IMG/VR virus record: IMGVR_UViG_3300010885_044183 | Location: 1-54,732 of that record | Direction: 5' to 3' (one strand) | DNA: 54,732 nucleotides | DNA from: a virus | Part shown: positions 2,813-7,820 of the stretch, piece after piece | How positions within the stretch are numbered: position 1 is the first letter of the stretch | Layout: every line of letters starts with the position of its first letter | Program-made: the position numbers and the translations under genes | Notes under the pieces: model-generated | Databases searched by the model: none | Told to the model about the DNA's origin: nothing | Seen by the model: only the letters and a program-made list of their open reading frames with translations

Positions 2813-4078
2813 TTAGCCGAGCAGAATTGCTGCGTGACGCGGTGCCACCAGCTTCTGGCCCCACGCAATCGCCAACTCATACTTCACTTGGCGGTATTGC
2901 AGGTACATCGACACCTCGAACATCAGACCGCTGATCGGGTCGGTGATCGTCACGCGGTCTTCCGCGATGTCACGAGCAACGCCGTTGACAATCGGCAGGG
3001 CAGGCGCGCGGGTCGCCAATTGAATGGCTGAGCGCGAGAATGCCATGTTACGAGTGCCGCCGGTGCCGATCGTCATCGCAGTTGCAGCGGCTGGAATCGC
3101 CACACGCAGACCCGGCTCCGCCAGCACGATAGTGCCCGCAGCGGCGACACCCGTAGTCACCACATAGATGTTGGTGTCGCCGGCAAACGTCACATTATCG
3201 CCAGCAACGACAGTGCCAGTGCCAGTGATGAGCGGGATGCTTGTGACGCCGACCGCAAGAAGCGTGCCGCTGGTGGTGTAAGAAGCACCCGTGCCCTTCG
3301 TTACGGTTTTCACCGTTGAGGAGTTGCGGATGTCATAGCCTTCAACACGACCGAGGATACCTTCGCGGAGCAGCTGATCGGTGCCAGCCTCGTTCGCCTT
3401 GAACAGCAACGATTGCTTACCTCGGACGTTGGAGATGGCGGCAGAGCCCAGCACAAGTTGACGATCGCCAGTAGGTGCGCCGTTATCATCAAGGATACGC
3501 AGCGTGCCTGCGAAGTCCGAGAAGTCGCCAGAAGTGCCAAAGGGCGCAGTGCCTGCGGTGCCGTAGGCGCGTGAGCAGCCGGTGTACAGCGCCGACAAGT
3601 CCGTTTCGATTTCATTCACGGCAGCGCGGAGAGCTTGCGAGAACTGATCGCGAGCCACGTTGCTTTGCACGCCGCTTCCGGAGATGGACAGCATCTCCTC
3701 GCCAGTCCAACGGATCGGCCAGTAGCGCGACTTGCTGATAGTCATCGTGGTGTTGCCCATCACTTGGTCGCCATCAGAAGGCGGATTTGCGCCCGGAGTG
3801 ATATCAGCGCCAACGATCGCCGGAACGATGGGGATATTCACGGTTTGGTTCACCGCGACGCGCTCAACGTTGGAGTTGCGCGCGACTGCAGGGATGAAAC
3901 CGACCATCTCCCGTGAGACGACATCCAGCGCTTCATACATCGTCGGGATAAGGTTGGTCAGGGTGTTAGCGCCGAGAACCATCCCGACTCGCGCCATGTA
4001 GCGTTCAACATGGCATTTGGCGATAAACAGCGCTGCTAGGACGTGCAACTTAATGGACTGTGCAATGCGTGCAAACAT
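2813..4078 (-). CDS. Major capsid (coat) protein, P22 gp5-like
   Basis: The 421-residue product resembles the P22-type coat family. Its core opens with ANTLTNLIPTMYEALDVVSRE. It has the typical GRVEGYDI/RNSSTV region, then an inserted beta domain (around TGTVVAGDNVTFAGDT, like the P22 I-domain), and ends with YLQYRQVKYELAIAWG. The start at 4078 is chosen because AAGGAG lies seven bases upstream. A longer open frame continues to 4198 but without a comparable site. The chosen start adds about 32 residues (MFARIAQSIKLHVLAALF... ending RYMARVGMVLG) ahead of the family's usual N-terminus. The scaffold gene carries a similar extension. It assembles the procapsid with the scaffold encoded just upstream. 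Confidence 0.9.
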   Translation of the reverse strand: MFARIAQSIKLHVLAALFIAKCHVERYMARVGMVLGANTLTNLIPTMYEALDVVSREMVGFIPAVARNSNVERVAVNQTVNIPIVPAIVGADITPGANPPSDGDQVMGNTTMTISKSRYWPIRWTGEEMLSISGSGVQSNVARDQFSQALRAAVNEIETDLSALYTGCSRAYGTAGTAPFGTSGDFSDFAGTLRILDDNGAPTGDRQLVLGSAAISNVRGKQSLLFKANEAGTDQLLREGILGRVEGYDIRNSSTVKTVTKGTGASYTTSGTLLAVGVTSIPLITGTGTVVAGDNVTFAGDTNIYVVTTGVAAAGTIVLAEPGLRVAIPAAATAMTIGTGGTRNMAFSRSAIQLATRAPALPIVNGVARDIAEDRVTITDPISGLMFEVSMYLQYRQVKYELAIAWGQKLVAPRHAAILLG

Positions 4079-4251
4079 GAAAGGCTCCTTGATAGATGAA
4101 TGGGAAATTACAATTTCGAGCATCCCGCTCGCCGCACAAAGAGCCGTCACGTCCCGCAACAGCCCAAACAAACTGAAGGGTGATTCACCCAGAACCACCC
4201 TTGACTTACGCGCTTATACTCCCTCGAAAATCGGAAGTAAATAGATTTGAC
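4079..4251 (-). promoter_or_regulatory. Structured spacer upstream of the coat gene
   Basis: This 173-bp spacer between scaffold and coat holds three inverted repeats. They are GGGTGATTCACCC at 4178-4190; CGAGC-ATCCC-GCTCG at 4117-4131 (loop GGGAT on the message strand); and AAATTACAATTT at 4105-4116. The last two lie side by side just before the AAGGAG site. A similar hairpin with the same GGGAT loop precedes the scaffold gene. They may act as a translational operator or processing site. I see no good sigma-70 promoter here. Confidence 0.4.
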
Positions 4252-5145
4252 TCATCCGTCTGTAAGGGTTGTCTTTTCGCGCATTGCCGCTATTCTGGCA
4301 TTGGAGTCGAGAGCTTCGAATGCTGCACGCGTCATTGTCTTGCCCGAGCCGCCGCTGTTCTTCCCGCCGCCCGCGCCGCCGCCTGATGCTGATGCCGGGA
4401 ACCAGTGAGGTGATTTCTTCTTCATCTCTGTCACCCACTCGTCAACAGAGTATGGAGTTTTGCCGTCGGCGCCAAGCACCACAGTTTCCTCATCGTCCTC
4501 ACCTTCAAAGGAAACCGCATTGCCCTCATCGTCAACAGAGAAGATACCACGCGCCCGCAGCAGTGCGTCCTCCACCGCACCCGCATGCATACCTGCCTTT
4601 GCCGCCGCCGCGCGAACATGGTTGTCGAGCACACGCCCCATAAAAGCGGACGCCACCTCGAGAGCACCAGAGCCCTGCGCGCGCGCCTCGGCCAGCTGAG
4701 CGTCAACCGCCGACATTTTCTTCGCCATGCGCCGATCGATGACTTCATCGATTTTGCCAGCAGCGATGAGTGCTGCTTCGTCCTGGCCATCGAACTTAGC
4801 GAGCAGCTCGCGCGTCTTCACTGGGTCGATACCCTCGAACTGCTTGGCGAAATCAGCCAGCGCCCGCTCACCCGCCTTTTTCGCCTCAGCTGCTTCCCTG
4901 CGCGTGGCGACAACGGTATTCTTCAACCCCGTCACATCTTCGACATCCACCTTGCTTGGGTCGAGTTTGAATTTCTTGGTGGTGGCGTCTTGCGCATACC
5001 AGCCGCGCTGAAACTCCGGCACCGTTTCAATCGCATCCACCTCCAGCGAGATAGCCGACAACACCATCCCTGTGCGCGCCATGTATCGAAATGCCATACC
5101 ATTTAGTGCCGAACCAACTGCCAGTGCTAGTTTTTTAATACGCAT
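4252..5145 (-). CDS. Capsid scaffolding protein
   Basis: The 297-residue protein sits immediately before the coat gene. From residue 30 it has the layout of phage scaffolds: SLEVDAIETVPEFQRGWY, a Lys-rich segment, DVTGLKNTVVATRREA, a long Ala/Glu/Lys helix likely to form a coiled coil, and a Gly-rich linker (ASGGGAGGGKNSGG). A short C-terminal helix, TRAAFEALDSNARIAAM, would contact the coat. The chosen start has GAGAGG upstream. It adds about 28 residues that look like a basic plus hydrophobic leader and end RYMARTGMVLSA, very close to the coat leader. The scaffold is expected to direct procapsid assembly and then leave. Confidence 0.82.
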   Translation of the reverse strand: MRIKKLALAVGSALNGMAFRYMARTGMVLSAISLEVDAIETVPEFQRGWYAQDATTKKFKLDPSKVDVEDVTGLKNTVVATRREAAEAKKAGERALADFAKQFEGIDPVKTRELLAKFDGQDEAALIAAGKIDEVIDRRMAKKMSAVDAQLAEARAQGSGALEVASAFMGRVLDNHVRAAAAKAGMHAGAVEDALLRARGIFSVDDEGNAVSFEGEDDEETVVLGADGKTPYSVDEWVTEMKKKSPHWFPASASGGGAGGGKNSGGSGKTMTRAAFEALDSNARIAAMREKTTLTDG

Positions 5146-5168: not shown

Positions 5169-5185
5169 CTGTGCATCCCGCACAG
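5169..5185 (-). promoter_or_regulatory. GGGAT-loop hairpin upstream of the scaffold gene
   Basis: CTGTGC and GCACAG form a 6-bp stem around the loop ATCCC (GGGAT on the message strand), 24 bp before the scaffold ATG. The coat-gene spacer has the same loop on a different stem (4117-4131). The pattern suggests conserved RNA structure rather than a simple sequence repeat. A role in translation control is inference. Confidence 0.4.
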
Positions 5186-5213: not shown

Positions 5214-5441
5214 CTATCGAACTCTTTTGTAGCGGTCATTATGCTTCGGCTGCATGATCAACCGAGCATCATCCTTGCCGCGCCTATAGGCGATCCCATT
5301 GCCGTAAACCTTGCCGGAGAAATATCGCTTTGCGTTCACGGCAATGGTGAAGTGCCAATGCTTCTTGCCGAATGCCCGCGCATACCGGTGCTGCCTCCGA
5401 ACCTCAGCTGCAGCCTCTCTTGCCGCATCGCTCCATGCCAT
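5214..5441 (-). CDS. Small basic protein with MAWS N-terminal motif (copy 1)
   Basis: This 75-residue basic protein begins MAWSDAAREAAAEVRRQ. The same 16-residue pattern opens three proteins in the connector region (48917-49282, 49689-49925, 50752-51099), yet the remaining sequences are unrelated. The body is rich in Lys, Arg, His and aromatics (KHWHFTIAVNAKRYFSG, AYRRGKDDARLIM). A GAGG site lies eight bases upstream. The start codon overlaps the stop of the MuF gene (TAATG). Its position between minor head protein and scaffold suggests an internal or minor head protein. No known domain is visible. Confidence 0.65.
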   Translation of the reverse strand: MAWSDAAREAAAEVRRQHRYARAFGKKHWHFTIAVNAKRYFSGKVYGNGIAYRRGKDDARLIMQPKHNDRYKRVR

Positions 5442-6517: not shown

Positions 6518-6732
6518 TGGTATTTTGCCTTGTTGTGGTGGTGCGCGCGAGAGGCCACCTTTACCTTTGCCCCGATAGCGCCATAAGTGCGCAGTATGAC
6601 GTCGCCCGCCGCGCTGTATTTGGTGATCTCTGCATACGTGGCGCGCGCCTTGGGTGCTGGAGAACCATCCTCAGCGTGGAAGTCCACGAGCATGTAGGTT
6701 CCGTCAGCATCATCGATACGTTCAGTTGTCAT
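6514..6732 (-). CDS. Hypothetical protein, 72 aa
   Basis: The start MTTERIDDADGTY at 6732 is chosen over the longer frame because its ATG overlaps the TGA of the metallopeptidase gene (ATATGA). The product has alternating beta patterns (TYMLVDFHAE, VILRTYGAIGAKVKVA) and a His-rich basic tail (RAHHHNKAKYQ). I do not recognise a family. Its place in a tightly overlapping head operon suggests a small structural or assembly protein. Confidence 0.55.
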   Translation of the reverse strand: MTTERIDDADGTYMLVDFHAEDGSPAPKARATYAEITKYSAAGDVILRTYGAIGAKVKVASRAHHHNKAKYQ

Positions 6733-7820
6733 ATTTTCTTTAGCTCCGCATATTTGAGTTCCGCATTCGCCGCTTCTTGCCACGAAGGCGACAGCCGGTA
6801 TGCGCCACGATATTCTAGACCTCCCCTCACCATGTAGTGAGTGGTGATCGCCTCAGCATACGCCTCCGCAACGTTGGTTCTGCCGTATACGGTTGGCGGT
6901 GCGGCCATATTTGGGTCTTTGCTCCAAAGTGAGTACACTTTGTCGATCGGCGAGCCAGACCTCAGACTCGGGCTCCCATACGTCCGGGTGGCCATGTTGT
7001 GCGCCATTTCATGGATGTAGTTGGCGTGGTTCATCTTATCACCAACCGACAGCCCTGCCATGTAGAACACAACGTGACCGTCGCCGCCCGTTGCCGCACT
7101 GGTGAATGAGTGGCCGAGCTTGCGTGTGAGCACTTCGTCTTGGCGATTGGACTGGGTCGAGATGAAGACGCGCTGTGTGGCGTCAGTCAAATACGAGGGC
7201 AGATCACCACGCGCCATAGTGACGAACAGCCCCGCTGCCGAGCGCCGCGCCAGCCGATCACCCTTTGCATAATGCACCCTCTGCCGCTCGAGTGGGATCT
7301 CAATCATCAGTTCGCCGGAGCGCATGCCGTGACGCTGGTGAATGCCTTGGGTCAGGTTATGCTCACTATTCTTCAGCCTGTGCTCCGCGATCGACGCCAA
7401 TGTGGAGCGGTCAGTCTCTTTAGAGGCTCTGAGGTCTTCAATGAGCTTACGCGAGATTTCATGCGGGCTCGTCAGCACTTCGAGGTGGCTGCCCCGCTTC
7501 AGCAGTGGCTTCTGCTCTTCAGGCTTGAGCGCACCTTTCTTTTTCAGGTTGTTCAGCCGCCTCCACTCGTTGTATTGCGCCAGAGGCTTGGGGATACCGG
7601 CGAGCCGCGCCTCTTCCACCATTTCTTTCCAAGTGCGCTTGCGCCCATCCTTCGACAGCCGGTCGAACAGCGCCTCAGATTCTGGACCGACAGTGGTCGC
7701 GGCAAACTGCCCACTCGGGTCACCGCTCCCCGCCGCCACGCGCGGGTGCTTTGACTCGTCCCACGCCCGCCCCGCGCCTATTTTGCGCAGAGCCGCCTTG
7801 CCTGCTTTGCTGAATGTCAT
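6729..7820 (-). CDS. Head-region metallopeptidase-like protein (HExxH)
   Basis: The 363-residue protein contains YIHEMAHNMATR, with HEMAH at about residues 270-274. A glutamate-rich helix (NVAEAYAEAITTHY, residues 316-329) follows that could supply the third zinc ligand, as in gluzincin-type zincins. The N-terminus AWDESKHPRVAAG...GQFA matches the W-x-E-x-x-HPR-x-x-G-x-FA header often seen on phage polyvalent and MuF-linked proteins. The middle is Lys/Arg-rich. Being coupled to head genes, it could be an ejected effector or a prohead-processing protease. The zincin motif is seen; the role is inferred. Confidence 0.65.
   Translation of the reverse strand: MTFSKAGKAALRKIGAGRAWDESKHPRVAAGSGDPSGQFAATTVGPESEALFDRLSKDGRKRTWKEMVEEARLAGIPKPLAQYNEWRRLNNLKKKGALKPEEQKPLLKRGSHLEVLTSPHEISRKLIEDLRASKETDRSTLASIAEHRLKNSEHNLTQGIHQRHGMRSGELMIEIPLERQRVHYAKGDRLARRSAAGLFVTMARGDLPSYLTDATQRVFISTQSNRQDEVLTRKLGHSFTSAATGGDGHVVFYMAGLSVGDKMNHANYIHEMAHNMATRTYGSPSLRSGSPIDKVYSLWSKDPNMAAPPTVYGRTNVAEAYAEAITTHYMVRGGLEYRGAYRLSPSWQEAANAELKYAELKKI

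Follow-up and report, generated by a model that had tools for sequence, protein, structure and literature searches.

The closest described counterparts of the leader reported here are prohead propeptides, Sec signal peptides and SecM-type arrest peptides. In HK97, the head protease removes the N-terminal region of the major capsid protein. Such prohead propeptides (delta domains), which occur on the HK97 major capsid protein and on gp23 and the cleaved scaffold proteins of T4, are similar to the leader as N-terminal extensions on the coat protein, and in T4 also on scaffold proteins, with a shared processing signal; like them, the leader is probably removed. However, prohead propeptides are tied to a single capsid family and a single protease, whereas the leader is common to unrelated families, a tail tube protein among them, and in HK97-type members it precedes the delta-like region. 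Sec signal peptides share the basic start, the hydrophobic core and the small residue at the junction. They differ in that their hydrophobic region lies directly before a (-3,-1) small-residue site; the leader instead has R at -5, a hydrophobic stretch more than 20 residues upstream of the junction and, between the two, a conserved segment of about 20 residues comprising a helix and an R-x-G-[ML]-[IV]-L motif, so that the junction is not a classical signal peptidase site. Furthermore, the leaders on scaffold proteins are barely hydrophobic, virion proteins are not exported, and passenger export is implausible for capsid proteins. SecM-type arrest peptides combine a hydrophobic segment with a C-terminal R-x-G motif as the leader does, but they are normally encoded by a separate upstream ORF or within a secreted protein and are not fused to many virion proteins. 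Only a possible parallel is provided by the Rigallicvirus Rhizobium phages vB_RglS_P106B and RHph_X2_24, whose coat protein carries a hydrophobic extension directly before ANTLT (MRKNLILPSLAAPFILSGAYAS-ANTLT) and whose scaffold carries another, both lacking the R-x-G-[ML]-[IV]-L motif. Signal-peptide-like extensions are annotated on coat and scaffold of phages of this genus (L087, 3950 and 2304; L084, 3971 and 2383). We know of no phage element that is common, in frame, to major capsid proteins from several families and to scaffolds, cement proteins and tail tube proteins. The earlier note knew of no such leader in P22-type systems, and our search of open-access papers likewise found neither a report for these systems nor a shared leader of this kind.

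The stretch of DNA analyzed (the window), an IMG/VR virus record of 54.7 kb, carries genes for a portal, a MuF-like head protein, a scaffold and a coat protein that follow one another on the minus strand, the scaffold gene standing directly before the coat gene (Table 1). The coat ORF opens at ATG 4078 (minus strand) after AAGGAG and begins MFARIAQSIKLHVLAALFIAKCHVERYMARVGMVLGANTLTNLIP; the scaffold ORF opens at ATG 5145 after AGAG and begins MRIKKLALAVGSALNGMAFRYMARTGMVLSAISLEVDA. Family matches start past the leader in both genes. The coat gene passenger is a P22-type coat, as judged from its match to Pfam PF11651 (33 bits, cut-off 24) and to phrog_283 (3e-97, residues 37-421), and the scaffold gene passenger is a phage scaffold by its match to phrog_206 (1.7e-41, residues 34-284). 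The earlier note had claimed a leader of 28-32 codons with the same 12-residue pattern in both genes. Both leaders, each with a ribosome site, and both 12-mers are real, and only the length range fails, as the coat leader is longer. Two further features of this gene neighborhood were observed. Small proteins between the portal and head genes (window 5214-5441, minus strand; L002 1498-2022 and 2019-2459) have a common N-terminus, MAWSDAARxAAxEVRR, followed by differing C-terminal parts; this N-terminus is perhaps another portable N-terminal tag. A 363-aa protein between the portal and MuF genes (window 6729-7820, minus strand) contains an HExxH-like stretch (YIHEMAHNMATRTYG), matches no Pfam family and has only a marginal PHROG match; it is possibly a metallopeptidase or toxin-like cargo.

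Table 1. Leader-bearing genes of the window and their shared elements.
Feature	Position	Strand	Remarks
Major coat protein gene	2813..4078	-	P22_CoatProtein / phrog_283; 36-codon leader ahead of the canonical ANTLTNLIP N-terminus
Coat leader MFARIAQSIKLHVLAALFIAKCHVERYMARVGMVLG	3971..4078	-	SD AAGGAG; kept in L002; leader HMM 38 bits; predicted helix 2-30
Motif RYMARVGMVLGA common to both genes, coat copy	3968..4003	-	
Scaffold protein gene with leader	4252..5145	-	phrog_206
Scaffold leader MRIKKLALAVGSALNGMAFRYMARTGMVLSA	5053..5145	-	kept in L002; leader HMM 38 bits; pN 0.37, pS 0.74
Motif RYMARTGMVLSA common to both genes, scaffold copy	5053..5088	-	

Comparison with coat relatives revealed where the leader is attached. 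Among 80 relatives fetched from IMG/VR, the N-terminus could be read in 71, nearly all of which begin with M-[AS]-N-T-L-T or a similar short start and have no leader; the closest, L001 (78%), is leaderless. One relative, L002, carries the leader on its coat as well as on its scaffold, which is the matching pair that the earlier note had proposed to look for. More widely, the leader is absent from phages with 64-84% identical capsid proteins. Where relatives are comparable, it stands exactly in place of the initiator Met, as in ..VLG-ANTLT for M-ANTLT, ..ILC-AVPMRS for M-AVPMNS and ..VLA-ANAFN for M-PNAFS. Of the 36 leaders, 31 have a G, C, A or S residue in the Met position, as expected of a cut site, and a cut after this residue would give the normal Met-less N-terminus.

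The leader has translation signals and is under selection. Of 35 leader ATGs, 26 follow a Shine-Dalgarno (SD) match of 4 nt or more, as against 2/33 and 1/23 internal ATGs. Between the window and L002, the scaffold leader has pN 0.37 and pS 0.74, close to the values of the protein body (0.32 and 0.68), which indicates purifying selection on the scaffold leader; constraint is weaker in the coat leader (0.44 and 0.62). The shared 12-mers differ at synonymous positions (pS 0.61, pN 0.20), bearing out the suggestion that the peptide is selected while its codons vary. An annotation artefact, in which the true start lies at an internal Met and the upstream frame is open by chance, might be suspected because most leaders contain internal ATGs. 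This explanation is highly improbable, since the SD signals are located at the leader ATG, the canonical start codons are gone where relatives are comparable, the GM of the motif is replaced by GL or GI in many members, the leader is homologous across passengers, and it is under purifying selection. Chance similarity and internal translation starts are thus rejected on the basis of the junction, selection and SD placement, together with the score gap and cross-passenger BLAST match described below; the occurrence of the same leader on both genes of L002 also excludes chance.

A separate element was observed in the same region. Hairpins with a GGGAT loop lie at window positions 5179 and 4126 (minus strand), some 30-50 nt upstream of the scaffold and coat starts, with different stems (TGTGC/GCACA and CGAGC/GCTCG). 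They are the only two of this kind in the window, for which shuffled sequences give 0.08, and similar hairpins precede both genes in L002, the coat gene of L001 and the scaffold gene of L010. As the L001 coat and L010 scaffold are leaderless, the idea that the hairpins belong to the leader system was rejected. Their loop contains a GGA reminiscent of CsrA/RsmA sites. An Rfam search of the window and L002 led nowhere.

The search for leaders used DNA patterns encoding M-A-R-x-G-M-[VI]-L-G or relaxed versions of it, followed by an HMM. After removal of duplicates, 30 phages or prophages were found to carry 36 distinct leaders, each heading a virion protein. The passengers are 15 P22-type coats, six HK97-type major capsid proteins (five by PHROG and L317 by similarity), two Phage_capsid_2 proteins, one GP7-type, one SU10-type and one weakly Mu-gpT-like protein, one cement protein, one tail tube protein (PF08813), six scaffolds (phrog_206 matched in the window, L355 and L366; L002 assigned by alignment to the window scaffold; two podovirus-type ones by position) and two small proteins adjoining the major capsid gene without a family match. 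By these assignments, the passengers represent at least eight unrelated protein families, and a leader confined to P22-type phages was rejected. The passenger family match mostly starts past the leader, while a few HK97-type matches extend into it. In the 3.4 Mb of DNA searched, the 36 leaders score 30-60 bits with the HMM, the best other match scores 24, and every match of at least 30 bits heads a virion gene; as the HMM was trained on these same leaders, the independent evidence is the gene context and the score gap rather than E-values. Members that the patterns had missed and the HMM alone detected include scaffold leaders ending LFRYQARAGLILC and LFRYQVRTGIILC and, in a bacterial genome from the order to which a Delftia genome belongs, a prophage leader with the ending LFRHMKRSGLVLC. 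Among about 770 bacterial genomes sampled with the Delftia genome as centre, real matches occurred in only one, of the same order, with two prophage copies. BLAST joins leaders on non-homologous passengers, as for the L101 major capsid protein and the L356 small protein (56% over 43 aa, E 8e-11). No leader was found in INPHARED phages and PLSDB plasmids, a search in which short hydrophobic queries may be missed, and comparison with Pfam, PHROGs, NCBIfam and PDB sequences gave no consistent match. The leader is therefore a portable, translated N-terminal domain on abundant virion proteins, homologous across unrelated passengers, furnished with translation signals and selected, and it looks like an undescribed swappable protein tag.

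The distribution of the leader within genomes bears on whether it acts as a structural part of the virion. Each record scanned has one leader, many contigs being partial, except that scaffold and coat both carry it in six (the window, L002, L232, L255, L355 and L366/L374). These six phages, and the prediction of leader residues 2-30 as one helix, favor a leader that stays on its protein and makes assembly contacts, for example between coat leader and scaffold leader. Nevertheless, we regard this as rather improbable, given that most phages have a single leader, that a cement protein and a tail tube protein are among the passengers, and that the leader of HK97-type passengers stands ahead of the region that, going by HK97, the head protease would remove. 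With several scaffolds leaderless in addition, the special coat-scaffold co-assembly or portal-nucleation signal that the earlier note had offered is not supported as a general explanation. The leader also shifts between neighboring genes. In L101 and L373, both of the Phage_capsid_2 group, the major capsid protein bears the leader and the next gene lacks it, while L357, of the same group, has the leader on the homolog of that next gene and not on the capsid protein, which aligns with that of L101 from residue 51, just past the leader. L356 has the leader on the same next-gene homolog, its capsid gene lying outside the sequence examined. Likewise, the cement protein of L102 and the tail tube protein of L376 bear leaders, and the capsid proteins of both phages are leaderless.

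The conserved part of the leader is a C-terminal unit of about 24 residues, approximately G-[ED]-x-[LV]-H-x-x-L-F-x-[HY]-M-x-R-[STN]-G-[ML]-[IV]-L-[GCAS], which is usually preceded by a basic, hydrophobic, signal-peptide-like start. As the search patterns force H/M, R, G and L, conservation was judged at unforced positions, where G at -18 (14/24), L at -11 (17/24) and F at -10 (15/24) are conserved, as are [LV] at -15, H at -14, [ST] at -4, the small residue at +1 and A at +2. A net positive charge over the first six residues is shared by 35 of 36 leaders, and 33 of 36 have a 10-residue hydrophobic window. The basic n-region and hydrophobic h-region are present in most major capsid leaders and weak on scaffold leaders, whose best 19-residue Kyte-Doolittle values are 0.17-1.28; an N-terminal membrane helix is thus not a constant feature, which counts against a simple membrane anchor. 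An AlphaFold model of the coat predicts the leader as a single helix, broken at R-x-G, with moderate confidence (mean pLDDT 68 for the coat), and does not decide its function. The hydrophobic N-terminal part and the nearly invariant R-x-G-[ML]-[IV]-L motif, at a fixed distance ahead of the passenger, would suit a nascent chain that pauses or tunes translation of late structural genes from within the ribosome tunnel, by analogy to SecM-type arrest peptides. We consider such regulation slightly less probable again than a retained assembly tag, because regulation should depend on the passenger, and because the small residue in the place of the initiator Met resembles a protein junction.

On balance, we lean slightly toward a mobile leader domain that spreads between tailed phages, joins in frame to any abundant virion protein and acts independently of its passenger, by targeting late translation or by releasing a bioactive peptide. 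The release of a peptide would mean that the leader is cut from abundant late proteins and acts alone and in trans, as an amphipathic peptide, on a membrane, lysis timing or host defence, for example, with the passenger supplying only high expression. The amphipathic helix (combined z 4.1), the shifts between neighboring genes and the indifference to passenger identity, all assigned passengers being late virion or scaffold proteins, which should be abundant, are consistent with such an activity. It is still an unlikely reading, weakened by the finding that no stand-alone leader ORF occurs among the leader matches, although a free peptide is easy to encode alone. The same finding fits co-translational targeting, where a passenger must follow. 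Given also the basic start, the frequent hydrophobic window and the small residue in the Met position, we tentatively prefer, with a probability of about 0.4, an N-terminal targeting propeptide that is probably directed to the membrane during translation and then removed near [IV]-L-[GCAS]|A. This reading retains the cleaved propeptide and membrane tag that the earlier note had listed among its suggestions. Such a propeptide would place late virion proteins at the inner membrane while they are translated and assembled, and its cleavage would restore the normal Met-less mature N-terminus. Cleavage may fall to a host protease, or to the head protease in phages that have one; in HK97-type members, a portal-protease-major capsid protein order is read from sequence. 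An accessory gene or protease common to the leader phages was rejected as a candidate, none being found on these partly incomplete contigs, and no protease was recognized near the capsid genes of the window. As no shared protease was found, the window phage would probably need a host enzyme.

Under either of these last two readings, the leader provides a sequence signature. If it is a targeting propeptide, ordinary tailed phages would tether virion assembly to a cell site, and if it releases a peptide, it would represent a new way of coupling a host-directed factor to capsid output.
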